A DNA stretch of 23,639 nucleotides from a virus. Position numbers and translations under genes: made by a program. The notes beneath the pieces were generated by a model. The model had not been told where the DNA came from and did no database searches. It was given only the letters and a program-made list of their open reading frames with translations. This document shows, in pieces, positions 10,658 to 23,639 of the stretch (within the stretch, counting starts at the first letter, position 1; every line of letters begins with the position of its first letter). The DNA is taken from positions 1 to 23,639 of IMG/VR virus record IMGVR_UViG_3300025853_000668; one strand, written 5' to 3'.

Positions 10658-10666
10658 TTTATAAAT
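10658..10666 (+). promoter_or_regulatory. TATA box of connector gene
   Basis: AATAAACTTTATAAAT carries a BRE-like A-rich flank and a TATA box centred 26 bases before ATG 10688. There is no Shine-Dalgarno sequence. Confidence 0.75.
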
Positions 10667-10687: not shown

Positions 10688-11329
10688 ATGGTAACGTATT
10701 GTACAGCTGCTCAAGTGGCTAGTTTTTTACAAAAAAAAGGAGGGTTTAGTGCAACAACTACTCCGACTACAACAGACGTAGAAGATCTGATTGAGAGAAA
10801 TGAGGATTATATTGATGAAGAAACAGGTCATGCATGGAGAGAAAAAACTGTAACTGACGAATATGTGGATCGTCCTGTTCCTGTTCCTGGTCTTGGTATG
10901 CGTTTCACACTTAGAAACAGATCTGTTAAAACTATTACTACTGGTTCTGGTGATAAAATCGAGGTCTTTGATGGTAATTCTTTTGAAGATTACGCAGCTA
11001 CAAAGACCGAAGGAAGAGCCTCAACGGCAGATTATTTTGTAGATAAAGAACTAGGACAGGTTTACATTAAAGATAGAATAGGAGCTTGGTATCCAAAGGG
11101 ATTTAGAGCGACTTATAGATACGGTGAGGCTACTGTTGCGCGTGACATAGAAAAAGCTTGTATACTCTTAACTGCGGCGGATATTATAACTATGAATGAT
11201 AGACAGGGAAGATTTCCAGACGATGGACCGTCTAATAAAATGAGTTTTGATTTAAGATATCAAAAATGGAAAGATCAAGCAGAAGATATTTTAGCAAGTA
11301 GAAAGGAATTGGGACCGTTTGTCCTATAA
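10688..11329 (+). CDS. head-tail connector (gp6-like adaptor)
   Basis: 213 residues. The N-terminus CTAAQVASFLQKKGGFSATTTPTTTDVEDLIERNEDYIDEETGHAWREKTVTDEYVD matches the helical opening of HK97 gp6/SPP1 gp15-type adaptors (T..Qva.fL....ft..T.p....V..lI...edyIDe.TghaWr). A beta-rich central part (SVKTITTGSGDKIEVFDG, VYIKDRIGAWYPKGFRATYRYGE) is followed by C-terminal helices. In known phages the adaptor forms a ring under the portal. A second ATG at 10684 is in another frame and is not used; 10688 fits the TATA spacing. Confidence 0.7.
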   Translation: MVTYCTAAQVASFLQKKGGFSATTTPTTTDVEDLIERNEDYIDEETGHAWREKTVTDEYVDRPVPVPGLGMRFTLRNRSVKTITTGSGDKIEVFDGNSFEDYAATKTEGRASTADYFVDKELGQVYIKDRIGAWYPKGFRATYRYGEATVARDIEKACILLTAADIITMNDRQGRFPDDGPSNKMSFDLRYQKWKDQAEDILASRKELGPFVL

Positions 11330-11429: not shown

Positions 11430-11903
11430 ATGGCTACTAATGTAGATACTACACAAATCATCTTAGATTTATTATCGAGTAATTGGAACAGTGCGAACAC
11501 TGACGGATTAACTCCAGAGTTCAAAAAGATCTTCCAAGTGCCTAAAACCAATATAGACTTTGATTACTCTAGGGATTATGTTTTATGTTATAATCCAAGC
11601 ACGGAGAATTTAGAGGTGGGTATTGGTAATAATACAATCGAAGACGTATTTGAAACAGTTACAATAGACGTTAGAAGTTATGGTGAAGAAGAAGCTGAAG
11701 AAGATTTTTGGAATGATACTCATATGATAAAACTCAAAACTGAGATTAACAGAATTTTAAAAACTAATAAAGTAAACTTTAACGCCAACTTTAACGAGCT
11801 TAGATCTATTCAGCAGTGGCAGGAGTTAAACGACAGGTATCGGGGAATCTTCCGAGCGATTAAAACTGTTGAATTAGTAGATTATTGTAGAGAATTTGCA
11901 TGA
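11430..11903 (+). CDS. probable tail terminator protein
   Basis: 157 residues, alpha/beta: TTQIILDLLSSNWN at the start, a central DFDYSRDYVLCYNPSTENLEVGIGNNTIEDVFETVTIDVRSYGEEEAEEDFWNDTHMIKLKTEINRIL and a final strand FRAIKTVELVDYCREF. Length, the VxIDVRxYG strand followed by a helix, and position between connector and tail tube genes fit the gpU-like tail terminator class, which caps the tail tube and joins it to the head. Sequence similarity in this class is weak, so the assignment leans on gene order. Confidence 0.6.
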   Translation: MATNVDTTQIILDLLSSNWNSANTDGLTPEFKKIFQVPKTNIDFDYSRDYVLCYNPSTENLEVGIGNNTIEDVFETVTIDVRSYGEEEAEEDFWNDTHMIKLKTEINRILKTNKVNFNANFNELRSIQQWQELNDRYRGIFRAIKTVELVDYCREFA

Positions 11904-11921
11904 TTTTTGTAAAATTTAGAC

Positions 11922-11972
11922 TTTAATCTTAATTTAAACCAAAATTAAACACAGTTTAAACTCAGTTTAAAC
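11922..11972 (+). repeat. five 11-bp-phased TTTAAAC repeats before tail tube gene
   Basis: TTTAATC, TTTAAAC, ATTAAAC, TTTAAAC and TTTAAAC begin at 11922, 11933, 11944, 11955 and 11966, each exactly 11 bases apart. The last two are parts of the perfect tandem CAGTTTAAACT (11952-11962, 11963-11973), each containing the palindrome GTTTAAAC. No other TATA box stands in the usual place, and the last copy is centred about 22 bases before ATG 11991, so it may serve as one. The array could also be an operator on one DNA face or bent DNA. Confidence 0.6.
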
Positions 11973-11990
11973 TTAAAATAAACTATAAAA

Positions 11991-12974
11991 ATGTCAGGTA
12001 CATATGCAGGTAAGAACGTATTTGCCCTTTTCGGGATAGAAAGCACTTTCAATACTCCAGTTAGTACAACTAAAGATATTGGAGTGATATCAGGGATTAG
12101 CCCAGATTTAAACAATAATAATATTCAAGTTAGATCAATCGGAGACAGAGAAGTTTGTGCAAACGTTGCAGGAAACTTTGATGCTACTCTTGGAATTGAT
12201 GGAACTCTAAACTCTGGAGCTGTGTTCGAGCTTATGTTTGGACAATCAACAGATACAGAAACAACAGGAGACTATACTCATACTTTTGTAGATAGAGGAA
12301 CTTTAGAACTATTAAATACAGCGTCTAGTTTCACTATGAGTGAGAACTACGATTCTACAACAGACGTAGTAAATACTTATTCCGGGTGTAAAATTAATAG
12401 TCTAGAGGTAAGTGTTGAGACTGGTGGAACTTTGAACTTCTCAGCAGAAGTTTTAGCTTCAAGTTTAGCGGTAACATCATCTGCAGGAACTGAAGTTCTT
12501 ACATCTACTAGTAAACTAGCAGGGTTTAACGCTACTCTTTCAACAGGAGATGCAGGATCAGAAGCTACTGTTGGACTTACTAAAAACGTAAGTGTAAGTT
12601 TTGGTCAAAACATCGACCCGGCAGACGTTAAAGCGATTGGAAGTAGAGAGAATCAAGACCTTGTAGAGAAAAACATGGATGTTACAGTTACTTTTACTAA
12701 AAGCTTTGCAAACTCAACAGAAGAACAAAGGTTCTTAGGAGGTACAAGTCCAAGCACTGGAACTCCAACAGCTACAAGCTTGATCCTTTCTGTGAATAAC
12801 GGAGTTGCTTTAGGGTCTGGTAGAGTAGAATTTTATGTTAAACTTTCAGGAGGGCAATATGAATCTACTAATAGAACAGTAAGCACAGATGGTATAGTAG
12901 AAGAGACTTTTAACTATACGTTTGGTAATATTGAAGATGTGTATTTTGTAGATGCAGTTGCTTCATACTTTTAA
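11991..12974 (+). CDS. major tail tube protein
   Basis: 327 residues, beta-rich with no membrane segment. N-terminal MSGTYAGKNVFALFGIESTFNTPVSTTKDIGVISGISPDL and the later FELMFGQ, TASSFTMSENY, YSGCKINSLEVSVETGGTLNFSAEV fit the tail tube family that opens with a xxxxxxGxExTFGTP segment and has a LxVxxxxG-xLxxSxx core. The C-terminal part (about residues 262-327) could be an added Ig-like domain (ATSLILSVNNGVALGSGRVEFYVKLSGG). The following genes (chaperone pair with frameshift, then tape measure) give the classical order and strengthen the call. The product would polymerise as hexameric rings into the tail tube. Confidence 0.8.
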   Translation: MSGTYAGKNVFALFGIESTFNTPVSTTKDIGVISGISPDLNNNNIQVRSIGDREVCANVAGNFDATLGIDGTLNSGAVFELMFGQSTDTETTGDYTHTFVDRGTLELLNTASSFTMSENYDSTTDVVNTYSGCKINSLEVSVETGGTLNFSAEVLASSLAVTSSAGTEVLTSTSKLAGFNATLSTGDAGSEATVGLTKNVSVSFGQNIDPADVKAIGSRENQDLVEKNMDVTVTFTKSFANSTEEQRFLGGTSPSTGTPTATSLILSVNNGVALGSGRVEFYVKLSGGQYESTNRTVSTDGIVEETFNYTFGNIEDVYFVDAVASYF

Positions 12975-12981
12975 ATAAAAA

Positions 12982-13308
12982 ATGGAATACGAGAGAAAAA
13001 TAAAGATAATATACCTTGATGGTAAAGAATACGAGCATACTATGAGAAAAATGCCAATTAGAAAGAGAAATACTCTTTTTAATACTTATCTTGATATGAC
13101 TAAGATCATGAAAGGAAAAGGAAAAGTAGCAGATACTGATATTGTTTCTTTGATTAAGAAAGATATGAGTGTTTTAGATTTCATCCTTGATGCTATTGAA
13201 GCTTGCTGTCCTGAGTTAGATCTTGATAAGGTAGACGGGCAACAGTGTGATGAGATTTTCAACGAGAACTCTGCTTTTATCCTTGGTCTTGCTGAATCAA
13301 AAAATTAG
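12982..13308 (+). CDS. tail assembly chaperone, short form (gpG-like)
   Basis: 108 residues: MEYERKIKIIYLDGKEYEHTMRKMPIRKRNTLFNTYLDMTK ... FILDAIEACCPELDLDKVDGQQCDEIFNENSAFILGLAESKN. The small alpha/beta start and helical end resemble tail-assembly chaperones encoded between tail tube and tape measure genes. The last three codons and stop read TCA AAA AAT TAG, which holds the -1 slippery heptamer A_AAA_AAT directly before the stop. In the lambda model this product binds the tape measure and is not in the final virion. Recognition is mainly by position, size and frameshift. Confidence 0.7.
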   Translation: MEYERKIKIIYLDGKEYEHTMRKMPIRKRNTLFNTYLDMTKIMKGKGKVADTDIVSLIKKDMSVLDFILDAIEACCPELDLDKVDGQQCDEIFNENSAFILGLAESKN

Positions 13309-13541
13309 AAAGCTATTTTAGGGACTTGATACGGATGAAATATCCGCCTTATATTCCATTCGAAGCCTACGAAATAGCAAATATTTACACTTTGATGAGT
13401 ATAGGAGCAACGTTTAACGAGGCAATAAATATGCCTTGTGATGTTGCAGATGGACTTCTTGCCCTTCATAAGCAAATAAAAGAGTATGAAGAAGACGAGA
13501 TGAAGAAGGTTACAAATAAATCAAAAATGAATAGAAGATAA
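12982..13541 (+). CDS. tail assembly chaperone, frameshift form (gpGT-like)
   Basis: A -1 shift on 13299-13305 joins the 108-residue frame to 78 further residues beginning LESYFRDLIRMKYPPYIPFEAYEIANIYTLMSIG and ending before 13541. Total predicted length is about 186 residues. The second frame has no good start of its own (a TTG at 13326 only) and is closed just upstream by TGA at 13293-13295, so it is accessible only by slipping within a window of some ten bases. The tape measure gene follows after one base. In lambda the equivalent GT protein links tape measure and tube subunits in a fixed ratio to the short form. Confidence 0.75.
13299..13305 (+). promoter_or_regulatory. programmed -1 frameshift site A_AAA_AAT
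   Basis: In the zero frame, codons are TCA AAA AAT TAG. The heptamer fits X_XXY_YYZ, the stop lies right after it, and the -1 frame is open from there to 13541. A 5-bp hairpin CGGAT/ATCCG (13332-13346) lies 26 bases downstream, farther than the usual stimulator, so the stop codon context may act instead. Confidence 0.75.
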
Positions 13542-13542
13542 A

Positions 13543-14817
13543 ATGGCAGTACTAAAATTAGATATTATAGTAGATAATTTGAATCAGATAAAAAAAGCCT
13601 TTGAAAACGTAGAAGTTGGTGATAAGTCTGGTGGTCTTCTTGGTGGTATTGATGAACAAATTAAAAAGCTCAGGGATCTTAAGATTGCAGCTACTAGCAT
13701 AGAAGATCTAAAAAAGATCAATAAAGACTTACAAAAGTTGCAAATTTCCAGACAACAACTGTCAAATGTAGGTTTGGAAGATAAAAAGAAAAAAAAAGAA
13801 GATGGACCATCTGCACTAGGAATAGGTGTAGCAGTTTCTTTTATTGAGCAACTTGTTAAGAGCACTGATGCGGTAGTAGGACTCTTAAAGGCAATTGGAG
13901 GGTTATTAAATCAATTAATAGCACCATTTGTTCCTATATTGCTTTCACTTATTAAACCGGTTTTTGTTATTTTAAACAAGTTTATAGCAAAGTTCTTTCA
14001 GACGTTCTTTTCAGATACAGGCGAGGGAACTCTTGAGAGAACAGTAAAACAAATACTCTCTGTACTTGCGGGAATCGGTACGTTTATAACTGCTTTAGTT
14101 CTAGGGGTTAAACTTCTTCCGGCTTTACTTGCTGGTGCTATTGCTGGTGTTCTTACTCCAGGAGCTTTTGATTTAGGAGGGGACTTAGTAAAGTTCTTTG
14201 CGGATAAACTCTCTGGTGTTGGTAAAATACTTGCTGATACTATTACCTTTATAGACGAAGTATTAAACACAGATTTTGCAGGTGTTTTACTATCGTTTGT
14301 TAGTGGAGCTGTTAATCTTGTAACAGGACTGGGAAACGCCTTAGTTTCTCTTGTTAATTTAGATTTTTCAGGAGTTGCAGACGGCTTCAAGAAAGCTTTT
14401 TTTGGTCTTATTGAAGGATTAAAAGCGCAGTTCTTGTTCCTATTTAACCTATTAAAAATAACTTGGACACTTGGGGCTACAGTAGTATTCAAAGCGTTTG
14501 GGTTTTTGTTTAAACTACTCAAAAACATCTTTCAAAGTGCTGTGCAAAAAATAGCTGGAATATGGTCCTTTTTGTTATCAGGACTAAAATCTGCTATTAC
14601 AAGCTTTGCTAGTGCTTTTGTGAGAGGTTTAAACGCATTGATCGGTTTGCTTAATAAAATTCCAGGAGTTGATATAGGAAGAGTTAGTGCTGGAAATACA
14701 GGAAGAGAAATCCAAACTAACATTTCTATAAACGTAGAAGGTTCTGCAGATGAAAAAACACTAGAAGAAATTACAAGACGTCTAGCTTTCTTGCAAAGCA
14801 GACAGGGAGGGTTCTAA
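13543..14817 (+). CDS. tape measure protein (short)
   Basis: 424 residues. The N-terminal 90 residues are charged and coiled-coil-like (VDNLNQIKKAFENVE, IDEQIKKLRDLKIAA, IEDLKKINKDLQKLQ). Residues about 95-380 alternate long hydrophobic helices (LLNQLIAPFVPILLSLIKPVFVILNKFIAKFF, LPALLAGAIAGVL) with amphipathic ones, as in tape measure proteins. The C-terminus (NIPGVDIGR region, then NISINVEGSADEKTLEEITRRLAFL) is also typical. At the usual ratio of about 0.15 nm per residue, the tail would be roughly 60 nm, short for this class. It starts one base after the chaperone stop (TAAAATG). Confidence 0.8.
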   Translation: MAVLKLDIIVDNLNQIKKAFENVEVGDKSGGLLGGIDEQIKKLRDLKIAATSIEDLKKINKDLQKLQISRQQLSNVGLEDKKKKKEDGPSALGIGVAVSFIEQLVKSTDAVVGLLKAIGGLLNQLIAPFVPILLSLIKPVFVILNKFIAKFFQTFFSDTGEGTLERTVKQILSVLAGIGTFITALVLGVKLLPALLAGAIAGVLTPGAFDLGGDLVKFFADKLSGVGKILADTITFIDEVLNTDFAGVLLSFVSGAVNLVTGLGNALVSLVNLDFSGVADGFKKAFFGLIEGLKAQFLFLFNLLKITWTLGATVVFKAFGFLFKLLKNIFQSAVQKIAGIWSFLLSGLKSAITSFASAFVRGLNALIGLLNKIPGVDIGRVSAGNTGREIQTNISINVEGSADEKTLEEITRRLAFLQSRQGGF

Positions 14818-15273
14818 ATGGTAGTTAATCAATTCAAAATAGAAAACTTGTCTAATGGAAAAGGGTTAAAATTTCACTCTGCGAGCAGGGTGGGAGATGC
14901 TCTTTCTATTAAAAACGTGGATGTGGCTTTTGGTGGTCAATCCAACCAGAACTATTCAAGAAACTTCGGAGGGTTCTCAAGGATTATCTCAGTGGACTTC
15001 AGGCTTAATAATGACGGTACGGATAAATCAACCGATGCAAGTAATATTATCACATTAAGTCAACAAGAGGACTACCTTATGGGACCTAACGGTGTTATGC
15101 AAGGTAAAGATGCTGGTGATATTATTTCGGATGTGAAGTTTAGACTTACTCTTTACGAAGATGGAGCGACTAAAACCATAACTGGTGGTGTGTCGGAGAT
15201 TAGTATAGATGGATCAAGCGATGATGCTAATCATTGGCTAGGAAGTTTGAACATCTTTGAAGGTGCGAATTAA
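14818..15273 (+). CDS. tail protein, possible distal tail or hub component
   Basis: 151 residues, beta-rich: VNQFKIENLSNGKGLKFHSASRVGDALSIKNVDVAFGGQSNQNYSRNFGG ... SRIISVDFRLNNDG ... DVKFRLTLYEDGATKTITGGVSEISIDGSSDDANHWLGSLNIFEG. The N-terminal VxxFxIENLSxGKG and following strands fit small tail proteins placed between tape measure and hub genes. ATG follows the tape measure stop with no gap, and a strong Shine-Dalgarno-like GGGAGG (14805-14810) sits seven bases before it. It probably forms part of the tail tip ring; the family is not recognised with certainty. Confidence 0.65.
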   Translation: MVVNQFKIENLSNGKGLKFHSASRVGDALSIKNVDVAFGGQSNQNYSRNFGGFSRIISVDFRLNNDGTDKSTDASNIITLSQQEDYLMGPNGVMQGKDAGDIISDVKFRLTLYEDGATKTITGGVSEISIDGSSDDANHWLGSLNIFEGAN

Positions 15274-16671
15274 ATGGTAATCAGGATTTTTCAAGAGGAT
15301 ACGGACAATGTGTCTACTACTATGCTAAAAGAAGATCGGACTAATATCGATATTCTCACCATTCTTGGACCTGAAACACTTACAATTAACGCAGAGGACG
15401 AGGTAGACATGCGTGATCCTACTGGTACCACGTATTTTACCGGGATTGTTAAATCTGTAGAAGCTGCCGGTGAGAAAAGAATTGTTGTTGAAGACTACGG
15501 ATCGCAACTTAAAAGAATTATAATCAATGAAGTTTTTCAAAACAAAAAACCTGAAGAGATTATAGAGGATATTATTAACAATGACACTGATCTAACTTAT
15601 GTTTCGTCTATTACTTCTACTGATACGATTAATGTTTATAAAGCAAATAAAAAAAGGGCTTGGGATGTGGTTACTGAGATGGCAGAACTCTTGCTTGCTA
15701 ACTTTCGAACGGATAAAAATAAAAACTTCCAATTAGAAAGAGAAGGAGACAGTTTCTCTTCAAAAAGTATCTCTACATCTAACGCACTTCTTGACGGTAA
15801 ATGGCTTGAAGATAAAGAGCCTATGGTTAATATCGCTACAGTAGATGGTGATGATAGACAGGTTTTTGAAAAAGAAGAATTATTTAACGGTACAGGAGCT
15901 CAAACCACTTTTACTCTTGCAGAAATTCCTATAGATATTCGTGTAGAGCATCCGGTAGGAACCCTGCTTGATGGGTTTGTTGAAGGTCAAAGTACTGGAG
16001 ACTATAAGCTGGACGACCGTGAGATTAAACAAATCACTTTCTCTTCAGCTCCTGCTTCAGGAACTAATAATATAAAAGTAACTTACACAGCATCCATTCC
16101 TATTTCTGTAAGAAGAAGAAGTAAAGCCAGTAGGGATACTTATGGAGACTATCCAAAGGTCTTCAAAAAAAGATATATTAAAACACGTACTGAAGCAAGA
16201 GCTTATGCGGATTTTATTATAGGTCGTTTTGCAAATCCTTTACTAAGTTCAAGGTGGATAATAACAACTAACACTGACGTTGATGATTTTGAACAATATG
16301 TACCAAATGAAGTAATCAACGTTAATGATACACTCAGAAGTATCTCAGGGGATTTTATCATAAGAAAAGTAGAGCGTCAGTATCCTGGTAATCTAAAAAT
16401 AACTGTAGGAACTCCGGAGAATGATATTACAGCTTTCAATAAAGAAAGTCTTATCAGAATCAAACAGTTAGAAGAGAAGGATGATAACAGTACAATTATC
16501 AACGATTCGGAAACGCTAGAGGAGAACCTCTTAATTACAACTACTGATACAGTAACTGATATCACTTCAAAAGCTCCGGCTGATGGATTTGTTTTAGATT
16601 ACAGTCCGAATAACCAACTTGATAAAAGCAAAAAATTAGATGGAGGGACAGTTACGGTTTTATACCCTTAG
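15274..16671 (+). CDS. tail hub / gpD- or Tal-like baseplate protein
   Basis: 465 residues. The first 90 residues (VIRIFQED ... LTINAEDEVDMRDPTGTTYFTGIVKSVEAAGEKRIVVEDYG) look like the first hub domain (xGxxYFxGIVxSVExxG). Next, KKPEEIIEDIINNDTDLTYVSSI and NKKRAWDVVTEMAELLLANFRTDKNKNFQLER form the typical second domain of hub proteins (AxDxxxElaellga.f..d..g.f.). Residues about 275-390 (KTRTEARAYADFIIGRFANPLLSS, YVPNEVINVNDTLRSISGDFIIRKVERQYPGN) complete the hub pattern. No peptidase motif is seen. It begins without gap after the upstream stop, with AGGTG eight bases before the ATG. Confidence 0.75.
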   Translation: MVIRIFQEDTDNVSTTMLKEDRTNIDILTILGPETLTINAEDEVDMRDPTGTTYFTGIVKSVEAAGEKRIVVEDYGSQLKRIIINEVFQNKKPEEIIEDIINNDTDLTYVSSITSTDTINVYKANKKRAWDVVTEMAELLLANFRTDKNKNFQLEREGDSFSSKSISTSNALLDGKWLEDKEPMVNIATVDGDDRQVFEKEELFNGTGAQTTFTLAEIPIDIRVEHPVGTLLDGFVEGQSTGDYKLDDREIKQITFSSAPASGTNNIKVTYTASIPISVRRRSKASRDTYGDYPKVFKKRYIKTRTEARAYADFIIGRFANPLLSSRWIITTNTDVDDFEQYVPNEVINVNDTLRSISGDFIIRKVERQYPGNLKITVGTPENDITAFNKESLIRIKQLEEKDDNSTIINDSETLEENLLITTTDTVTDITSKAPADGFVLDYSPNNQLDKSKKLDGGTVTVLYP

Positions 16672-16680
16672 GTGAATAAC

Positions 16681-17049
16681 ATGGCAATTACACAAACAAG
16701 TTTAAACGCAATTAAAACACAGGTCTTAAACGATATCGATACAACTTATGGATATATAGCAGTCGGTGACGATGCTACTGCTCCTGTTGTTGGTAATACT
16801 ACTTTAGGAAATGAGACAGATAGAGAAGCATTATTTGAAGCTGCGAGTATTATCACGAATACTATCCGGATGTATATTTTTTTAGATACAACTGAGAATA
16901 ACGGTAATGATATTAATGAGGCTGGTTTATTTGATGCTGCTTCTTCTGGTACGATGTTTGCTAGAAGCTTATCTAATAGTATCACAAAAGATGCTTTCAC
17001 AGAAGTAACTATGGAATATGCTATAACGGTTGATGCGCTAAATGCATAA
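16681..17049 (+). CDS. tail/baseplate fibre-like protein, paralogue 1
   Basis: 122 residues from ATG 16681. A GTG at 16672 directly after the upstream stop would add three residues, but AGGTGA (16670-16675) is well placed for ATG 16681. YGYIAVGDDATAPVVGNTTLGNETDREALF then INEAGLFDAASSGTMFARSLSNSITKDAFTEVTMEYAITV matches a common phage protein with the layout IxxGxGxTxPxxxxTxLxxExxR ... IxExGLFdaxSgGTMxxR. The next gene encodes a diverged copy with the same FDAASSGTM block. The family usually lies near the baseplate or fibre genes; whether it is structural is inferred from that. Confidence 0.7.
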   Translation: MAITQTSLNAIKTQVLNDIDTTYGYIAVGDDATAPVVGNTTLGNETDREALFEAASIITNTIRMYIFLDTTENNGNDINEAGLFDAASSGTMFARSLSNSITKDAFTEVTMEYAITVDALNA

Positions 17050-17082
17050 CCATATAAAAAACAAAATGGAGAGATATATAAC

Positions 17083-17451
17083 ATGGTAGTAGTGCAAGTT
17101 GGTTTAGATGCAGCGGAAGCCTTTGCGTTAAATCATTTTGACGGGTTTACGCACATTGGGATCGGAACAGGAACCGGTGCAGATGGTCCTTCACGAACTA
17201 CCTTAGAAACAGAAGTGGCTAGAAATGCGTTTGATTCGTCTGTTAAAAACGCTGGAGCTGGTACTTATGACTTTACAGGTGTATTTACCATTAGCCAAGC
17301 AGACGGACAGACTATAACAGAGGTTGCAATTTTTGACGCTGCAAGTAGTGGGACTATGGCTTTAAGAAAGCTACTACCCGTATCAGTTTCAAAAAGTTCA
17401 ATACAGTTAGAAATAACAGTGCGGGTTACAGTAACCGCAAGCAATAACTAA
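17083..17451 (+). CDS. tail/baseplate fibre-like protein, paralogue 2
   Basis: 122 residues. FTHIGIGTGTGADGPSRTTLETEVARNAFD and ITEVAIFDAASSGTMALRKLLPVSVSKSSIQLEITVRVTV align with the preceding gene at the same positions (GxGT...TTLxxExxR, FDAASSGTM, final beta-strand), so the pair arose by tandem duplication followed by strong divergence. Start context is mixed: GGAGAG (17068-17073) ten bases upstream, and a weak TATA-like CATATAAAA (17051-17059) about 28 bases upstream that might give an extra transcript. Two different subunits may make a hetero-oligomeric baseplate ring or fibre. Confidence 0.7.
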   Translation: MVVVQVGLDAAEAFALNHFDGFTHIGIGTGTGADGPSRTTLETEVARNAFDSSVKNAGAGTYDFTGVFTISQADGQTITEVAIFDAASSGTMALRKLLPVSVSKSSIQLEITVRVTVTASNN

Positions 17452-17452
17452 A

Positions 17453-17632
17453 ATGGCAGGAAGAAAGTATTTAAGAATTGAGATAGAGGGTAAAGGTTTT
17501 GTAGTTGACCTTAATTTTGTAAAGCCCGAAGAGATAAAACTAGAGCTGGGTTATGTAGAAGGTACAACTTTTAACGGAAAAAAACAAATAACCTTAGAAT
17601 CATTAGAAAAACAGGGGTTTAAATTAGAATAA
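17453..17632 (+). CDS. 59-residue protein in the tail operon
   Basis: A short gene reading MAGRKYLRIEIEGKGFVVDL, then NFVKPEEIKLELGYVEGTTF and NGKKQITLESLEKQGFKLE. It is flanked on both sides by TAA-A-ATG junctions (17449-17455 and 17630-17636), exactly the spacing used by its neighbours, which strongly supports translation. The composition is charged with alternating hydrophobic residues, suggesting a small alpha/beta protein. No family is recognised; a small tail or fibre-assembly component is likely from its place in the operon. Confidence 0.75.
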   Translation: MAGRKYLRIEIEGKGFVVDLNFVKPEEIKLELGYVEGTTFNGKKQITLESLEKQGFKLE

Positions 17633-17633
17633 A

Positions 17634-18692
17634 ATGGCAGGAAATTTTTATGCATTTGAAGAGTTCATGGCTAGTGCAAAGATTAATGCACATATAGATG
17701 GTAACAGTAGTGGACTTGCTGAGGCGTACTATAAAACGCTTCAAGCCAATGACGTTTTTAATAACAACGACGGATCTGCAGCTGATGAATTTGTAGATTC
17801 TACTGGAACAAATGATACAGTAAGTGTTCCAGTATCTTTAACAACTACAGATAGTACTAGTCAAAGCACAAGCTATCCAACATTAAGTAGTTCAGTCTAT
17901 ACATTAGGAGCTAACGATGAAGCACCTGGAGATACAACTCACGACCCAGATAGTTTTACGAATGTGTCAAATGCTTTTGACGGAGATCCTACTACTAACG
18001 CTCAGAAAGTCACAGCTTCCTCAACTTCTGCTACACATTCCTTAGGGAAAACATTCGCTTCAAAGTTTGTAGACTATATTTTAGTAGGAACAGCAATAAG
18101 AAGAAATGGGTCTAACTCATGGAACTCTGCAAGTATTAAGATTCAAACGTATAACGGAAGTACCTGGAGTGATGAAACAACCTTGCACAGTACAACAAGC
18201 AAAAGATATATGGCAGCCTACGGTTTTTACAGAATGTCAAAGACTGTACAAGGTATTAGAATACAATATACTTATTCAGACGATGCTTCTATCGGTTGTG
18301 ATTTTGATCTATACCAGTTAGAATACGGTGACTCACTAGTAACTGACGGTGTTTTTAACACAGACCAATATGAGTTACTTGACGATGGAGGAGGGTTTGT
18401 TACTTCTGGTAAAGTAGTTTGTGCAGAAGATAATATCTTAGCTACGGATGGAACAGAACAAGGTTTAAGCGTATATATTGAATCGACTATAGAAGCAAAT
18501 ACTTCTATAACAATGGATATAACGGACGGAACTGTAACACTATCAGGTATTACATTCGATAGTCGTGGTAAAAGTGGAGTACAAGACGTGAGTAGTTTTA
18601 CTACAGGTAACTTACAAATCACATTTAACCTAAATAGTACAAATGTAGCAAACTCACCAAGACTCAAAGGGTACGGGGTACACATGTTTTAG
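17634..18692 (+). CDS. large adhesin-like fibre protein with discoidin-like domain
   Basis: 352 residues. After a helical N-terminus (FYAFEEFMASAKINAHIDGNSSGLAEAYYKTL) comes a Ser/Thr-rich part, then residues about 107-235 resembling an F5/8-type (discoidin) beta-sandwich: TNVSNAFDGDPTTNAQKVTASS (the NAFDGDxxT opening), SASIKIQTYNGSTWSDETTLHS, KTVQGIRIQYTYSDD and DLYQLEYG. The C-terminal third (LVTDGVFNTDQYELLDDGGGFVTSGKVV to the end) is another beta-rich domain. Carbohydrate binding is typical of the discoidin fold, so host attachment is plausible. The domain call is by pattern only. It starts one base after a stop (TAAAATG). Confidence 0.65.
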   Translation: MAGNFYAFEEFMASAKINAHIDGNSSGLAEAYYKTLQANDVFNNNDGSAADEFVDSTGTNDTVSVPVSLTTTDSTSQSTSYPTLSSSVYTLGANDEAPGDTTHDPDSFTNVSNAFDGDPTTNAQKVTASSTSATHSLGKTFASKFVDYILVGTAIRRNGSNSWNSASIKIQTYNGSTWSDETTLHSTTSKRYMAAYGFYRMSKTVQGIRIQYTYSDDASIGCDFDLYQLEYGDSLVTDGVFNTDQYELLDDGGGFVTSGKVVCAEDNILATDGTEQGLSVYIESTIEANTSITMDITDGTVTLSGITFDSRGKSGVQDVSSFTTGNLQITFNLNSTNVANSPRLKGYGVHMF

Positions 18693-18697
18693 ATAAA

Positions 18698-18925
18698 ATG
18701 GCATTACCAGAAAGTAAAAGAGTAGGAAAGAAAATAAGGCAGACACTCGGAGGTCCTTTTAAGGAACTTCAGTATCTTGCGGATGCAGTCGCAGCTCAAG
18801 ATATTATCATCAGAAAGTACGTTCTAAACCAAACTATTACTGATGAAGAACTTACTTGGGCGTCTGAAAAGCTTGAAGAGCTAAGAGCCGTAAGAGCTAC
18901 TGTTGAATCTATTCGTAATGAATAA
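18698..18925 (+). CDS. small helical protein
   Basis: 75 residues: MALPESKRVGKKIRQTLGGP at the start, then a helix-rich remainder with KELQYLADAVAAQDIIIRKY and EELTWASEKLEELRAVRATV. No membrane segment, no Cys. It follows the adhesin-like gene after five bases and ends two bases before the TATA box region of the lysin gene. It may be a fibre chaperone or minor tail subunit; not recognised. Confidence 0.6.
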   Translation: MALPESKRVGKKIRQTLGGPFKELQYLADAVAAQDIIIRKYVLNQTITDEELTWASEKLEELRAVRATVESIRNE

Positions 18926-18926
18926 A

Positions 18927-18935
18927 TTTATAAAC
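18927..18935 (+). promoter_or_regulatory. TATA box of the lysis cassette
   Basis: AATAAATTTATAAAC provides BRE-like and TATA elements centred about 25 bases before ATG 18956. It allows the lysis genes to be expressed apart from the long tail operon. Confidence 0.7.
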
Positions 18936-18955
18936 ACTTTTTTCTATTAGAATTT

Positions 18956-19567
18956 ATGTATAAGGTCGGTGATATTGTTCTTTTTGAACCTAGAGGGTTT
19001 GTAGGGTACTTGATAAATGTTGGAAACCTTAAGGAGTATGGAGAAAAAGGACCAACACACATAGGAATTATTTGTGAAATTACAGAAGATCATGTTGTTG
19101 TAGCAGAATCTCGAGCAAAAGGTTTTCACAAACATAGCTATACAAAGCTAGAAATGGCAGACCTTACCCAGCCTCAAAATAACACCGTTCCAAAAGTCCA
19201 AATTAAAACACTTGATCGTGCTTATAGTGTTGATCCTAAAAAGCTTAATGATATTATTATTAAGTATATCGGAAGAGAATACGGATTTTTAGACATTTTT
19301 TATATCATGCTTTACCTGAAGTTTGGTTTTAAAATGCCTAAACGATTAAGAACCAGAAGCAAAAGACTTATCTGTTCTGAAGCTGTTGCCCGTGTATTTT
19401 ACGAGCTGGACAAGACGATTAACCTTGAGGTAGAATTTAACAAACCTTACGACTATCTCATGCCGATAGAATTCAAACATTCAAAACACTTTAAAGATTA
19501 CAGATGGAACGAAATTCTGTCTTGGAGAATAAACAATGGGATCAAACAAACGAATAAAACGCCTTGA
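18956..19567 (+). CDS. permuted NlpC/P60-type cysteine hydrolase, candidate lysin
   Basis: 203 residues. The order of motifs is that of the permuted (YiiX/LRAT-like) papain fold: GDIVLFEPRG (5-14), GPTHIGIICEI with candidate catalytic His35, VVVAESRAKG (E51), then GREYGFLDIFYIML (106-119) and RLICSEAVARVFYE with candidate nucleophile Cys140. Such enzymes cleave amide bonds in peptides, cell-wall cross-links or lipids. No signal peptide is seen. A one-TM protein gene overlaps its end, so a lysin-holin pair is suggested. In an archaeal host the substrate might be a peptide-linked wall such as pseudomurein, but a non-lytic processing role cannot be excluded. Confidence 0.7.
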   Translation: MYKVGDIVLFEPRGFVGYLINVGNLKEYGEKGPTHIGIICEITEDHVVVAESRAKGFHKHSYTKLEMADLTQPQNNTVPKVQIKTLDRAYSVDPKKLNDIIIKYIGREYGFLDIFYIMLYLKFGFKMPKRLRTRSKRLICSEAVARVFYELDKTINLEVEFNKPYDYLMPIEFKHSKHFKDYRWNEILSWRINNGIKQTNKTP

Positions 19568-19736
19568 AAAGAAGTTAAAAGCTCATATTGAAGAAGAACA
19601 CAAGAAGGTTATCTTTAGTAAGCACAACATTCACACAGCTGTTACTGTTGCACTTATTTTGTACATGATAGTTAAAGGCACTTTAGACCCTACTAACCTT
19701 GAGGAAATACTTAGAATACTTACTGGTATTTTATAG
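19536..19736 (+). CDS. one-TM holin-like protein
   Basis: 66 residues: a strongly basic, coiled N-terminal part (SNKRIKRLEKKLKAHIEEEHKKVIFSKH), then one hydrophobic segment (IHTAVTVALILYMIVKGTL, about residues 32-50), then a short acidic-amphipathic tail. Size, single membrane span and a 32-base overlap with the lysin gene fit a holin or spanin-like helper. Usual holins have a charged C-terminal tail rather than the N-terminal charge seen here, so orientation is uncertain. It is the last plus-strand gene of the window. Confidence 0.6.
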   Translation: MGSNKRIKRLEKKLKAHIEEEHKKVIFSKHNIHTAVTVALILYMIVKGTLDPTNLEEILRILTGIL

Positions 19737-19791
19737 GTTTAAAAAAATAACTCAGGACAAGTTTTTAGCGGCAAGTCCCAAGTGCTAACGT

Positions 19792-19845
19792 AGTATATAA
19801 AGAATAGTTCTACAGTTTACAATAATATCTTATTCTTTATATACT
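19792..19845. repeat. 15-bp perfect inverted repeat with convergent TATA boxes
   Basis: AGTATATAAAGAATA (19792-19806) is the exact reverse complement of 19831-19845, with a 24-base spacer. Each arm carries TATATAAAG, so promoters on the two strands would point toward each other across the spacer. It may be a regulator binding site, a hairpin in RNA, or an origin-like element. Confidence 0.6.
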
Positions 19846-19904
19846 TTATTAAGAAAATAATTAGGAGAAAATATGATAAAGCAAAAGACCTAATTACTTT
19901 GTGT

Positions 19905-19957
19905 AAAAAAAAGAGAACAGCATATTCCTTTTTTATAACAAGCAGGGTGACAAACCC
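19905..19957 (-). ncRNA. candidate 50-nt small RNA
   Basis: On the minus strand, 26 bases from a strong TATA box (19978-19988), an RNA would begin with a hairpin GGGTTTGTCACCC and end in eight T (19905-19912). It encodes at most a nine-residue peptide (MLFSFFYTK), so a small structured RNA is as likely. This is inferred from promoter, hairpin and T-tract only. Confidence 0.3.
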
Positions 19958-19967
19958 TATTTTTTTA
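19944..19967 (+). terminator. hairpin plus T-tract after the lysis genes
   Basis: AGGGT (19944-19948) pairs with ACCCT (19954-19958) across GACAA, followed by A and seven T. It is a good candidate end for plus-strand late transcripts that pass the lysis genes. Confidence 0.6.
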
Positions 19968-19977
19968 GATGTTTCAC

Positions 19978-19988
19978 CTTTTATAAAG
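19978..19988 (-). promoter_or_regulatory. minus-strand BRE-TATA box
   Basis: Read on the minus strand, GGAATAACTTTATAAAAGG is one of the best BRE-TATA matches in the window. It overlaps the stop of the 57-residue gene at 19989 and points into the non-coding region, where no protein gene follows. Confidence 0.5.
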
Positions 19989-20162
19989 TTATTCCATCTC
20001 AGAAATTTTCTTCTTTTCTTCCCCTCTAAACAGTGCAATATCAAAATTCACAAACTTGGATTGTTCTAGTAAAACACCTCTACTTATCCTCTCGTGAAAC
20101 TCTTTTGCTTTTTGCTTTCTCGCCTTGTATTTTTTCTCATAAGCTGTGTCGTAGGTTTTCAT
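19989..20162 (-). CDS. 57-residue charged protein
   Basis: Read from ATG 20162: MKTYDTAYEKKYKARKQKAK, then EFHERISRGVLLEQSKFVNF and DIALFRGEEKKKISEME. The ATGA overlap of four bases with the stop of the upstream gene supports the start. The first 25 residues form a very basic helix and the rest is mixed, which could suit nucleic-acid binding. It is the last gene of the right-hand minus operon. No family is recognised. Confidence 0.7.
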   Translation of the reverse strand: MKTYDTAYEKKYKARKQKAKEFHERISRGVLLEQSKFVNFDIALFRGEEKKKISEME

Positions 20163-20350
20163 TTTTTGTTTTTCTTGCCTCCTCTTCTCGTAGGCTTTTT
20201 TTTAACTCTTAAGGGTTTACCCTCAACTCTCTCTTTAATGTCTGTTATAATGTCTCTCTGGCTTAATTTACCTATAATAATATTATCTTCTTTTACTGAT
20301 ATAATAGGTAAGTGTCCCATATAATCCGGTGTAACGCATAATCTCTCCAT
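20159..20350 (-). CDS. small basic protein
   Basis: 63 residues. MERLCVTPDYMGHLPIISVKEDNIIIGKLSQRDIITDIKERVEGKPLRVKKKPTRRGGKKNKK: a compact beta-strand region and one helix (SQRDIITDIKERVEG) followed by a basic tail of Lys, Arg and Gly that suggests nucleic-acid binding. ATG lies about 23-25 bases from a TTTAAATAAA box on the minus strand, so this gene may begin its own transcript. It overlaps the downstream gene by four bases. Not recognised. Confidence 0.65.
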   Translation of the reverse strand: MERLCVTPDYMGHLPIISVKEDNIIIGKLSQRDIITDIKERVEGKPLRVKKKPTRRGGKKNKK

Positions 20351-20365
20351 GGTTTTAATAAAAGT

Positions 20366-20378
20366 AATTTATTTAAAT
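20366..20378 (-). promoter_or_regulatory. candidate TATA box for gene at 20350
   Basis: ATTTAAATAAATT on the minus strand is centred about 23 bases before ATG 20350. It is weaker than the TTTATAAA boxes elsewhere, but the spacing agrees. Confidence 0.45.
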
Positions 20379-20399
20379 TATTTTGGTGTTTGCAAGTTG

Positions 20400-20414
20400 G
20401 TTACAGAGTGTAAC
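20400..20414 (-). other. 6-bp hairpin after membrane protein gene
   Basis: GTTACA (20400-20405), loop GAG, TGTAAC (20409-20414) is a perfect small hairpin placed directly after the stop of the gene at 20415. No T-tract follows on the minus strand, so it could be a processing or pausing signal rather than a terminator. Confidence 0.4.
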
Positions 20415-20781
20415 TCACTCCTTTTGTTTTTCTTTATTCAAGTGATAAACAATCAAACCTAATGGGTAAAGGGTCATTAATACTAGCATCAACAGGATTA
20501 TATCATAAAGTAGAGATTTGTTTGCTTTAGAAACTCCTTGCTCTTCTTTTATCTTATCATAACAATCAAAGTATGAAAGGTTATCATTATTCATATTGCA
20601 TTTATTTATTTCTGAGTGTGAAAATCTCCCTCCGTGATGGTGTCCACTAGACCCAAAACTTCCCACCACAACAGCTCCTGCTCCTGGACTACTAACACTA
20701 TAAACAAAAGGTGTTAAAAGAAAAATTAGTACTACAACAACTATTAACTTAACCATTTTTATCATAACTCACTCCTTTTGT
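20411..20781 (-). repeat. 17-bp direct repeat flanking the membrane protein gene
   Basis: TAACTCACTCCTTTTGT occurs at 20411-20427 and again at 20765-20781, once at the 3' end of the gene 20415-20765 and once at the 3' end of the DUF1653 gene. On the minus strand both contain AAAAGGAGTGAGTTA, a Shine-Dalgarno-like block; only the second copy now precedes a start codon. Confidence 0.7.
20415..20765 (-). CDS. small exported, membrane-anchored protein
   Basis: 116 residues. N-terminal MIKMVKLIVVVVLIFLLTPFVYS is a signal peptide or anchor; then a Gly/Ser/His-rich stretch (SSPGAGAVVVGSFGSSGHHHGGRFSH), a short domain with two Cys (NKC, FDC), and a C-terminal transmembrane helix (LYDIILLMLVLMTLYPLGLIVYHL) with a charged tail. 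The layout matches the product of 5188-5520 without obvious sequence similarity. ATG 20765 overlaps the upstream stop (ATGA) and has GGAG six bases before it; ATG 20756 is an alternative. A surface role toward host or competing viruses is inference. Confidence 0.65.
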   Translation of the reverse strand: MIKMVKLIVVVVLIFLLTPFVYSVSSPGAGAVVVGSFGSSGHHHGGRFSHSEINKCNMNNDNLSYFDCYDKIKEEQGVSKANKSLLYDIILLMLVLMTLYPLGLIVYHLNKEKQKE

Positions 20782-20968
20782 GTACAGGTTCGAACCGTCT
20801 GATGTAAGTATTGTCTATCTTTATCATCTCATAGAACATTTTCTTAGGTCGGATCTCTATCTTTTCAGAGTTAAGAGGTTTGTACACTACTAACTCTTCT
20901 TTAGTCTCTGTGTGTCTTCCTTCGTAGAGGGTTTCATACAAGTCTCCTTTAAAGTGTCGGTATATCAT
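20762..20968 (-). CDS. DUF1653 family protein
   Basis: 68 residues: MIYRHFKGDLYETLYEGRHT, then ETKEELVVYKPLNSEKIEIRPKKMFYEMI and IDNTYIRRFEPV. This fits the DUF1653 pattern YRHFKGxxYxVLxxAxHTETxExLVVYxxLY...xxxRPxxMFxE.V......RF along its whole length, with the usual size. The fold is a small beta-barrel; a biochemical role is not established. In phages such genes stand among short early or nucleotide-metabolism genes. It precedes the membrane protein gene with a four-base overlap. Confidence 0.8.
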   Translation of the reverse strand: MIYRHFKGDLYETLYEGRHTETKEELVVYKPLNSEKIEIRPKKMFYEMIKIDNTYIRRFEPVHKRSEL

Positions 20969-20979
20969 TTGGTATATAA

Positions 20980-21171
20980 TTAGGCGAAACTTACAGTCTC
21001 GTCTGCAATATTTGGACCTTTATTTGTTTCTAAAACTATTTCTTTTGCATAAGCAACTTCTGCATTCTTCTCTAGTATTATACTTTCAGATACAGCTTTA
21101 CAATTTGTAAAATTTATTTCATACTGCTTGCCTTCTTTTTTACATATTACTGTCAATTTTTTTATTTCCAT
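20980..21171 (-). CDS. hypothetical protein
   Basis: 63 residues: MEIKKLTVICKKEGKQYEIN followed by FTNCKAVSESIILEKNAEVA and YAKEIVLETNKGPNIADETV. Mainly beta-strand pattern, two Cys (C10, C24), no membrane segment. The start follows the A-rich run AGAAAAAATGG that marks most minus-strand starts here. It lies 11 bases upstream of the DUF1653 gene in the same operon. Not recognised. Confidence 0.6.
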   Translation of the reverse strand: MEIKKLTVICKKEGKQYEINFTNCKAVSESIILEKNAEVAYAKEIVLETNKGPNIADETVSFA

Positions 21172-21190
21172 TTTTTCTAATATTTATCTC

Positions 21191-21427
21191 CTAATTGTCA
21201 ATATTATCAATCTCCTTTTGTAATTCTTCTTCTGTTATATCAAAAAACTTCATCCACATCTTAAAAGCAGGATGTTCTAAAGCTAAACAACAACCTACAG
21301 CCCACTTAATAGCTTCAGCTCTTAGTTCTTGCTCTAATTCATTAACACCATCAAAAAAAGAATTATCAAATGCAGAATCTCTAGGAGAGATAAGTATATC
21401 TTTTTTTAAATCTTTTAACGTTTTCAT
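21191..21427 (-). CDS. hypothetical helical protein
   Basis: 78 residues, acidic and helical: MKTLKDLKKDILISPRDSAF, then DNSFFDGVNELEQELRAEAIKWAVGC and CLALEHPAFKMWMKFFDITEEELQKEIDNI. It has adjacent Cys residues (GCC) and no membrane segment. It follows the GGDEF gene after about 20 bases in the same operon and so would be co-expressed with it. The LRAEAIKWxxxC phrase is reminiscent of short phage proteins of unknown role. Confidence 0.6.
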   Translation of the reverse strand: MKTLKDLKKDILISPRDSAFDNSFFDGVNELEQELRAEAIKWAVGCCLALEHPAFKMWMKFFDITEEELQKEIDNIDN

Positions 21428-21447
21428 TTTTTCTTATTTCCATCCTT

Positions 21448-22026
21448 CTAATAAACATCCCTCGCAATATCTATCGTTCCTTTGTTTCTACCAGTGGTTT
21501 TTGACCTGTATAGAGCGTTATCTGCTTGTCTTAGCAAGATCTCAGGGCTGGTCATTTCGTGTGGCTTCTTAGTACTAACACCGTAAGAAATAGTAATGGG
21601 ACGTTTTAATGGTGCTCCATTATTATACATTTCCTGTATCTCATTACGGAAGTCTTCCATTTGCCACAAAACTTCATCTGAGTATTGACCCGGAAGAATC
21701 ACTGCAAACTCCTCACCACCATATCTATACACACGATCGTCTTTCTTATGGAAGTATTTCTTAGACATGTTCCCCACAGTTTTCAAACATAAGTCTCCTT
21801 CCGGATGTCCATACGTGTCGTTGTATTGTTTGAACAGGTCAATATCAAAAAGCATCAAAGAGAAAGCGTTTTGTTTCTTATTAGCTATTTTTACTTTATT
21901 CTCTAAGGTTTGATCAAAGTGTTTTCTATTATACAAACCGGTTAAGTGGTCTGTAATAAGCTCTTTCTGTAGTTGTTTATGTTCGACTAGTAAATCGTTA
22001 TACATTTTTTTATAAAAATTCTCCAT
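21448..22026 (-). CDS. stand-alone GGDEF-domain protein, predicted diguanylate cyclase
   Basis: 192 residues with a single GGDEF domain after a short coiled helix (1-22). All main motifs are present: DHLTGLYNRKHFD (26-38), FDIDLFKQYNDTYGHPEGD (60-78; metal ligand Asp61, guanine contacts Asn69 and Asp78), RYGGEEFAVILPG (101-113; GGEEF at 103-107), ITISYGVS (144-151) and QADNALYRSKTTGRN (167-181). The family condenses two GTP to cyclic di-GMP. The inhibitory RxxD site is KKDD (94-97), with Lys for Arg, so product inhibition may be weaker. No sensor domain, membrane segment or EAL/HD-GYP domain is attached. Start context is CTAAAAATGG like neighbouring genes, arguing that it is a settled resident. 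A product other than c-di-GMP is possible. Confidence 0.9.
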   Translation of the reverse strand: MENFYKKMYNDLLVEHKQLQKELITDHLTGLYNRKHFDQTLENKVKIANKKQNAFSLMLFDIDLFKQYNDTYGHPEGDLCLKTVGNMSKKYFHKKDDRVYRYGGEEFAVILPGQYSDEVLWQMEDFRNEIQEMYNNGAPLKRPITISYGVSTKKPHEMTSPEILLRQADNALYRSKTTGRNKGTIDIARDVY

Positions 22027-22052
22027 TTTTAGTGTTTAATTATTTTTGTGTT

Positions 22053-22409
22053 TTACTCTATCTTATACTTCTGGTTGATCCAGGTGATCATGTCTTCTTT
22101 GAAGGGTGGGATGTATTCCGCAAAACCTAAAGGAGCACGCTCTTGTCTTTCGTATATTTGTTTAGTATTTTGCCACACGTTCTCAAGATAATTTATCTCG
22201 GTTACGAGCGGTAAAACTTTATCATGCAAAAGATTATCGTAATGCCTGATAAGATGGTAGTCCATACTAGTTTTTTTCAACTGGAGCAAGATCTCATGTT
22301 CTAAATCTGAGAATTTCTCCGCGTCGTCTTGCATAAGCTCCACGTCGTCCCTCTTATAAAACTCGGTAAACTTGTTCAAATTATAATTTGTATTTTTATA
22401 TCTTAACAT
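22053..22409 (-). CDS. hypothetical helical protein
   Basis: 118 residues, mostly helical and charged: MLRYKNTNYNLNKFTEFYKR, a long helix region (QDDAEKFSDLEHEILLQLKK, YHLIRHYDNLLHDKVLPLVTEIN) and a C-terminal part with PPFKEDMITWINQKYKIE. No Cys or membrane segment. It lies just upstream of the GGDEF gene and overlaps the next upstream gene by 14 bases, so the three genes share a transcript. It might be a partner or regulator of the cyclase, but nothing in the sequence shows that. Confidence 0.6.
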   Translation of the reverse strand: MLRYKNTNYNLNKFTEFYKRDDVELMQDDAEKFSDLEHEILLQLKKTSMDYHLIRHYDNLLHDKVLPLVTEINYLENVWQNTKQIYERQERAPLGFAEYIPPFKEDMITWINQKYKIE

Positions 22410-22803
22410 TTTTTAATTGTTTTAAGACCTTTAGACATTCTTTATATATTTCTTTAGAGGTCCACTTCTTATTATTCTTTTCCCATTCAAACCCTTCTTC
22501 TCCAATACTATAACCGTGAAAGTCGTCACAATGTCCGTAATCCCAACCTAAAAACCAGGTATCAGAATGAAAGCCTTGTAATCCTTTATTAGCATAAGTT
22601 AAACCACCGTGACAGTTAATGTGAAGTTCTTGACCAGTTTCCGTATAGTCATAACTTTTATTATTGTAAGGATGCTCTTTAGGAAGTCCAATATAAGCAC
22701 AAGGATAATGACCGTAATTCATTATTATTATTAGATAATTGTCTATTCTCTCCTCATGTAAACATATCAACTTTCTTTCCTTTGTGTATTTCATCTCTTT
22801 CAT
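22396..22803 (-). CDS. conserved phage protein of unknown function (YxGLPxxHP / HGGLT type)
   Basis: 135 residues. It shows a set of motifs I associate with a widespread uncharacterised phage family: MNYGHYPCAYIGLPKEHPYNNKSYD, LHINCHGGLTYANKG, TWFLGWDYGHCDDFHGYSI and a C-terminal SKEIYKECLKVLKQLKN. The conserved His, Asp and Cys residues (HGGLT, DYGHCDD) could bind metal. The family is found in many bacteriophages, so this gene links the virus to a wider tailed-virus gene pool. It overlaps both neighbours. Confidence 0.7.
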   Translation of the reverse strand: MKEMKYTKERKLICLHEERIDNYLIIIMNYGHYPCAYIGLPKEHPYNNKSYDYTETGQELHINCHGGLTYANKGLQGFHSDTWFLGWDYGHCDDFHGYSIGEEGFEWEKNNKKWTSKEIYKECLKVLKQLKNVKI

Positions 22804-22952
22804 TTTTTAAACATCTCCTTTAATACTTCTTTTAGTGAGTCATCTGAAATAATCCACATAGTTAAAGCAGCCATTAGTTTTGGAATAAAAAGATACAGTG
22901 CTACAGGAAACCCAATAATATTTCTTAAAGCTCTTAAGTATTTATTTTTCAT
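22800..22952 (-). CDS. 50-residue membrane protein
   Basis: Read from ATG 22952: MKNKYLRALRNIIGFPVALY, then LFIPKLMAALTMWIISDDSL and KEVLKEMFKK. One hydrophobic stretch (about residues 12-35) is flanked by a basic N-terminus and a charged C-terminus, so a single membrane span with the N-terminus inside is likely. The start lies three bases after the upstream stop in TAAAAAATG, and its stop overlaps the next ATG (ATGA). Not recognised. Confidence 0.7.
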   Translation of the reverse strand: MKNKYLRALRNIIGFPVALYLFIPKLMAALTMWIISDDSLKEVLKEMFKK

Positions 22953-22955
22953 TTT

Positions 22956-23156
22956 TTAATCATCTATTACTTTAAGCTCTACATCATAATCATCAATAGT
23001 TACAAAATGTAATTCATTTTTTCCACCAGAAATCTTAGCCCAATGATATGTGACATTTATCCAACCAGCCAATTCTATTGCATCTCTATAACTTATAGTA
23101 AAGTCTTTTTCTTTTATTTTATTTTTTATCATCTCAACTATTTCTTGCCTAATCAT
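22956..23156 (-). CDS. hypothetical protein
   Basis: 66 residues: MIRQEIVEMIKNKIKEKDFT, ISYRDAIELAGWINVTYHWAKIS and ELHFVTIDDYDVELKVIDD. Helix-helix-strand-strand pattern, soluble, no Cys. It starts four bases after the upstream stop (TAGAAAAATG) and is followed after three bases by the 50-residue membrane protein gene, consistent with a tightly coupled operon. Not recognised. Confidence 0.6.
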   Translation of the reverse strand: MIRQEIVEMIKNKIKEKDFTISYRDAIELAGWINVTYHWAKISGGKNELHFVTIDDYDVELKVIDD

Positions 23157-23160
23157 TTTT

Positions 23161-23625
23161 CTACCACTGACCGTTACACCAGCCTTCAGCGTTTGGATCG
23201 TTACGAGGTGTGTTTTGATCTGATTGTAACTCGTGACTTTCTAGTCTATAATCGCACAGGTTCTTATATCCGTCACACACATAACAGCCCATGTCTTTGT
23301 AGTTTTTTGTACCTTCTAACCCAGCACGTCTTTCTAGTTCTATGCTTCTTTGATTACGGCTTACGTTATACCACATGCATTTGTTACTCGCAGTGTTTTC
23401 TTTCATTTGATGATTAACATAAAACAAAGTTGCTGATTCTACAGCAGTGTTAAAAAGCTTTCTAAGGTCGTCTGTGATAGGTCTATTCCCCATCTTACAC
23501 TCCATCTCTTGCCTAATGTTATATGCAACGTCGTTAAAGTAATTCATCGCTTTAATCTTCTTCTCCTCAGGTAGGTCTGAGAATTGCATGATCTCTTCTA
23601 ATCTATTTTCATTGTCAATAGTCAT
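23161..23625 (-). CDS. hypothetical Cys-containing protein
   Basis: 154 residues. The N-terminal 75 residues are helical (NRLEEIMQFSDLPEEKKIKAMNYFNDVAYNIRQEME). The C-terminal part contains several Cys and aromatic residues (MGCYVCDGYKNLCDY, EGWCNGQW), possibly a metal site. The ATG lies behind TAATAAAAA near the window edge, so the gene is complete and its promoter or upstream neighbour lies outside. It is the first gene of the visible minus operon. Not recognised. Confidence 0.6.
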   Translation of the reverse strand: MTIDNENRLEEIMQFSDLPEEKKIKAMNYFNDVAYNIRQEMECKMGNRPITDDLRKLFNTAVESATLFYVNHQMKENTASNKCMWYNVSRNQRSIELERRAGLEGTKNYKDMGCYVCDGYKNLCDYRLESHELQSDQNTPRNDPNAEGWCNGQW

Positions 23626-23639
23626 TTTTTATTACTCTT

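Follow-up and report, generated by a model that had tools for sequence, protein, structure and literature searches.

A stand-alone GGDEF diguanylate cyclase gene in a tailed virus of archaeal affinity

We found that a tailed virus that very probably infects archaea encodes a small stand-alone GGDEF protein and, judging from its residues, c-di-GMP synthesis is very probably what this protein does. The virus is represented by an IMG/VR record, a linear fragment of 23,639 bp that contains a head-tail module and that we refer to as the window. The cyclase gene occupies positions 21448-22026 on the minus strand (192 codons, with its ATG at 22026). c-di-GMP is regarded as a bacterial messenger, and a dependence on it is not known for archaea or for the viruses that infect them. 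Retention of an apparently intact cyclase by a virus in this archaeal context speaks for selection on what the enzyme makes, and the protein offers a small, expressible enzyme for asking if c-di-GMP acts in archaea.

The 192-aa protein matches the Pfam GGDEF family PF00990 over residues 25-182 far beyond chance (E 5.6e-43, 146.9 bits vs a cut-off of 23.8) and the NCBIfam diguanylate cyclase family TIGR00254 with E 1.7e-46, so the profile searches that the first-pass annotation had proposed bear out its assignment. In an alignment with 12 other GGDEFs, the invariant or nearly invariant positions include D26, D61, F65, K66, N69, D78, R101, the GGEEF loop at residues 103-107 (21706-21720, minus strand, as derived from the residue numbers), K176, G179, and R180. 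By analogy with PleD and WspR, the metal ligands are D61 and the second Glu in the GGEEF loop, while N69 and D78 bind guanine and K176 and R180 bind phosphate. The protein carries both a GG[DE]EF loop and the residues expected to hold metal, GTP, and guanine, and the active site is apparently intact, as first claimed. Hypr GGDEFs, which make cGAMP, have Ser at the guanine-binding Asp position. Retention of D78 in the viral enzyme disfavors a Hypr/cGAMP synthase identity and makes the earlier suggestion of another cyclic product unlikely.

Only one helix of about 23 residues lies N-terminal of the GGDEF domain, with no sensor domain there and no EAL domain in the 192-aa protein, in agreement with the initial description of an enzyme lacking both sensory and c-di-GMP-degrading domains. 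The RxxD allosteric I-site, an optional feature that does not define the GGDEF family, reads KKDD in the viral cyclase, which confirms the replacement of Arg by Lys noticed at the outset. Since the I-site is missing from many active cyclases, weaker feedback in the viral enzyme is something that we infer.

An AlphaFold2 model built on a 17-sequence alignment (pLDDT 93.2, pTM 0.86) consists of a single helix at residues 2-24 followed by a GGDEF fold. Its top solved match in Foldseek is the WspR GGDEF domain fused to a GCN4 zipper (E 6.4e-20), and further solved matches are Caulobacter DgcB, with a coiled coil and a GGDEF domain (6ttr), full WspR, and PleD; the WspR entries are 3i5c and 3bre. 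The model confidence and the WspR match together predict that the viral protein adopts the GGDEF fold. A helix stalk that drives dimerization is the working mode of WspR-, DgcB-, and PleD-type enzymes, which makes it plausible that the viral cyclase is a constitutive dimer held together by its N-terminal helix. Ten predicted viral proteins gave a clear structural match (E <= 0.001), including those of SP-15 and Bordetella phage CN1 and Gp350 of phage G; no archaeal-virus protein was among the named matches in this set.

What kind of virus carries this gene? The major capsid protein (8246-9340, plus strand) has 9 matches in 50,697 phage records, namely eight haloarchaeal tailed viruses (33-35% identity) and the Methanofastidiosa virus vir519 (25%). 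A search of 84,980 prokaryote genomes with a capsid protein alignment found a sole match, a contig of the archaeal MAG S5B6_HD70 (42%). A profile search of 87 genomes from the phylum of this MAG then detected a second capsid match in genome G034, 119 kb into a 155-kb contig. At that site, genes such as ftsZ, alaS, argS, RNase HII, and pyruvate:ferredoxin oxidoreductase (translations read by eye) surround a phage-like module that includes a tyrosine recombinase, and by this gene content the module is a provirus integrated among archaeal genes. The tailed provirus spans roughly 105-131 kb of contig G034:C4 (L163-L165), within an archaeal chromosome, and is a relative of HCTV-1-type viruses.

The tail-completion protein (6694-7107, plus strand) and head maturation protease (7104-8240, plus strand), both assigned with PHROGs, are syntenic with the archaeal provirus and the MAG contig by tblastn, and from the portal end onward to the tail tube the genes come in a shared order. 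A head-tail region protein (phrog_17057; 10688-11329, plus strand) matches exclusively haloarchaeal viruses in the phage collection. The protease, tail-completion, and tail-tube proteins had no match in that collection and hence give no host clue, nor was there a tRNA-based one. In a tree of 31 capsid proteins, the window groups with two other contigs (L003 and L012; 100/100) inside a 12-member clade containing no host-linked member, and the host-linked members of the tree are archaeal without exception. HCTV-1 belongs to the Druskaviridae, and the capsid phylogeny of a predicted Poseidoniales virus family resembles that of the Druskaviridae (PMC13108676). The homologous capsid and head-tail region proteins relate the window to archaeal Caudoviricetes near the Druskaviridae; membership in that family calls for a genome of ~100 kb and genome-wide protein sharing, vs a 23.6-kb fragment with two matching proteins here. 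Directly downstream of the capsid gene, a NUMOD4/HNH homing endonuclease is encoded at 9401-10060 on the plus strand.

Promoter sequences were the basis on which the first-pass annotation had suspected an archaeal setting. The arrangement TTTATAAA-N18-26-ATG occurs 7 times in the window vs 0.59 expected (0/100 shuffles), and at least four of the seven TATA-like boxes directly precede predicted starts, at 4387, 10086, 10688, and 18956 (boxes at 4358-4365, 10054-10061, 10658-10665, and 18927-18934, all plus strand). The same excess is found in the sister contig L012 and in L024, and is absent from the relatives L020, L022, and L163. At 50% GC, L024 still has 4 boxes at leaderless spacing vs 0.08 expected. 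Five bacterial or phage control loci had none, although these loci are short or GC-rich with ~0 expected and are weak controls. Shine-Dalgarno motifs are scarce in the window. The claim of archaeal-type promoters thus holds for several genes but not for the cyclase, which has no TATA box of its own. Its start context, TAAAAATG, is the same as that of neighboring minus-strand genes, as had been observed, and the cyclase is probably co-transcribed within that gene run. Altogether, the capsid matches, the MAG contig and provirus, and the enriched TTTATAAA boxes at leaderless spacing make an archaeal host for the window virus well supported, with the host link coming from relatives rather than from the virus itself.

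The cyclase sits in an operon-like run of ten small genes on the minus strand (20159-23625), delineated from ORFs and family searches. The run includes a DUF1653 protein (20762-20968, minus strand; E 1.6e-20) and a phrog_2164-like gene (22396-22803, minus strand) recognized by family search. A search of loci from related viruses returned no homologues of the minus-strand operon genes, and the two neighbors of the cyclase that were tried had none in other viral contigs. Is the cyclase truly part of this virus? A contig from another metagenome accession (L002) is 99.9% identical to window positions 11451-23639 over 12,189 bp, and its 12 mismatches all fall outside the cyclase gene. Because this second assembly bears the cyclase together with the same tail genes, we reject a chimeric contig. 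The GC content of the cyclase gene (36%) equals that of the window. No Rfam family matched the window at E up to 1, so neither a c-di-GMP riboswitch nor another RNA was detected. Elsewhere in the window (5924-6454, minus strand), a 176-aa protein is built of repeated CTFKTG/CTFDTG hexapeptide-like units and weakly matches Cupin_3.

Where did the gene come from? GGDEF proteins had been called rare in archaea, and the archaeal literature describes them as nearly absent and unproven (PMC5847659, PMC8646023). They are less rare than assumed in at least one archaeal phylum, that of S5B6_HD70, where 25 of the 87 genomes encode one, on contigs of up to 236 kb and adjoining archaeal genes such as NMD3. 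Most of these archaeal GGDEFs form one clade (99/95) of 220-390-aa proteins with N-terminal extensions. In this native clade (L034-L063, phylum of G028), the loops are mostly retained, and PilZ, EAL, and MshEN occur in none of the genomes. AU tests on a 97-row quick tree did not reject a grouping of the viral protein with archaeal GGDEFs, but both constrained trees outscored the free tree and the tests were uninformative; we therefore used a careful tree of 60 rows. There, 28 rows from bacteria, plasmids, and phages group with the viral GGDEF (92/82), and the native archaeal clade lies apart. The GGDEF tree is weakly resolved, and this grouping suggests that capture from bacteria is the more likely origin. 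The phylogeny that had been proposed as a check accordingly places the viral enzyme among bacterial-type GGDEFs.

Alternatively, the gene may derive from the host archaeon or one of its kin rather than directly from a bacterium, in which case the virus would be returning a host-type enzyme. We regard this as unlikely. The archaeal genome G032 encodes a stand-alone GGDEF of 190 aa (L035) that is 39.6% identical to the viral protein and is flanked by an M29 peptidase and a D-aminoacyl-tRNA deacylase of the archaeal type, and sisterhood of the viral protein and L035 is not rejected by an AU test (p 0.94). Against this, the careful tree places the viral and G032 GGDEFs apart, the contig from G032 is just 3.2 kb, and the closest bacterial matches, cyclases from Rhizobium etli plasmids (40.8% identity), score 135 bits vs 96 bits for the archaeal protein.

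What might the virus do with c-di-GMP? We propose that an archaeal tailed virus captured a bacterial-type GGDEF gene that was cut down to a catalytic domain and a dimerizing helix. The cyclase would be expressed from the minus-strand accessory operon, dimerize through its N-terminal helix, and convert two GTP to c-di-GMP without an input signal, while the altered I-site would probably weaken product feedback. As c-di-GMP accumulates in the infected cell, host behavior would shift through a receptor that is not PilZ, EAL, or MshEN. For the whole chain, in which constitutive synthesis alters host surface behavior or physiology via a receptor outside these three types, we judge the chances to be evenly balanced, and its last steps are those that we infer. 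Viral diguanylate cyclases have been linked by other authors to biofilm or gene transfer (PMC7785012), and c-di-GMP was undetectable in extracts of Haloferax and Sulfolobus (PMC8646023).

The proposed host search for PilZ or other receptors came back empty: PilZ, EAL, and MshEN were each found in 0/87 genomes of the phylum that hosts two relatives, which need not be the phylum of the window virus's host, and the positive controls for these searches gave matches. A receptor is therefore not evident. The presence of GGDEF in 25 of these archaeal genomes alongside none of the three domains suggests that an unrecognized receptor may exist. A more tentative idea is that the virus installs c-di-GMP as a signal or agent in a lineage without canonical receptors, acting via an unrecognized archaeal target or on cyclic-nucleotide defense.

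A related proposal is that the enzyme is active but that its c-di-GMP, or some by-product, misleads or competes with nucleotide-sensing host defenses (CBASS, type III CRISPR, or Panoptes-like systems) as a decoy would, and is not a behavioral signal. A stand-alone catalytic unit with no sensor would suit this role, as would the missing receptors in one archaeal host phylum, and one report describes a defense system that uses decoy cyclic nucleotides (PMC12657218). Panoptes, however, is a host system and not a viral one, and the residues of the viral enzyme predict c-di-GMP, not the cyclic nucleotides of those defenses. Moreover, the GGDEF protein has no PADLOC match, which argues against its being a defense gene, and one neighbor weakly matches PD-T4-6. 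We consider the decoy role improbable and continue to favor a signal acting on host behavior.

Less probable still is a bacteriophage with an archaeal-virus-like capsid whose cyclase serves ordinary bacterial c-di-GMP signaling. The bacterial type of the GGDEF, the DUF1653 neighbor, and a second neighbor weakly matching a Streptococcus phage protein would fit a phage; the capsid matches, with each host-linked relative archaeal, the archaeal MAG and provirus, and the TATA-like boxes at leaderless spacing in both the window and its sister contig disfavor one. About equally improbable is an inactive GGDEF acting as a binding or scaffold protein, which the altered I-site might allow, since degenerate scaffold GGDEFs usually lose catalytic and GTP-binding residues and the viral protein retains them all.

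How unusual is a viral GGDEF? At least 446 viral contigs encode one, and in the best non-redundant set the ORFs are mostly 280-640 aa, as expected for multi-domain proteins; many are perhaps bacterial prophage flanks. Several GGDEF matches in the phage collection are probably bacterial contamination. Several records listed as phage, such as CAKLQH020000018.1 and AGRM01000005.1, are apparently bacterial chromosome contigs and inflate the GGDEF counts in that collection. Beyond the identical copy in L002, the closest viral homologue among the 446 loci is ~40% identical. Among 29 related records (28 viral and the archaeal MAG), the only GGDEF match was in the MAG; the search of related viral contigs envisaged in the first-pass annotation thus yielded 0/28, which is weak evidence of absence as several records are short fragments, and left the near-identical L002 as the sole close viral homologue. 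We found no report of a diguanylate cyclase in an archaeal virus in the open-licence literature, which is not proof of absence, and a survey of archaeal tailed viruses does not mention GGDEF or diguanylate (PMC8651126). The view that GGDEFs are uncommon in viruses needs qualification, as bacteriophages, SP-15 among them, also encode GGDEFs that are small or stand alone.

Within its family the viral enzyme is unremarkable, and cyclases encoded by phages have been described before. The Druskaviridae (HCTV-1, HVTV-1) and the G034 provirus share a homologous capsid protein and similar gene order with the window, but halovirus capsids are only ~33-35% identical to that of the window, and neither the related virus records nor genome G034 has a GGDEF. 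The native GGDEFs of the S5B6_HD70 phylum likewise place this domain in archaea, but mostly as a separate clade of longer, N-terminally extended proteins. Bordetella phages LK3 and CN1 and Pseudomonas Yuavirus also encode GGDEF cyclases, and LK3 lysogens over-produce biofilm (PMC8471281); their bacterial hosts, however, possess c-di-GMP systems, and the CN1 protein is a distant structural match (25% identity). SP15_150 of Bacillus phage SP-15 is closer in form, a stand-alone 183-aa GGDEF of a tailed virus and the second structural match among viral proteins, but it is 33% identical, has a bacterial host, and lies in a carbohydrate gene cluster. Finally, unlike the WspR/PleD-type cyclases of Pseudomonas and Caulobacter, the viral enzyme has no receiver or other input domain, carries KxxD for RxxD, and is encoded by a virus, yet these cyclases are its best sequence and structure matches and share its GGEEF domain, catalytic residues, and helix stalk.
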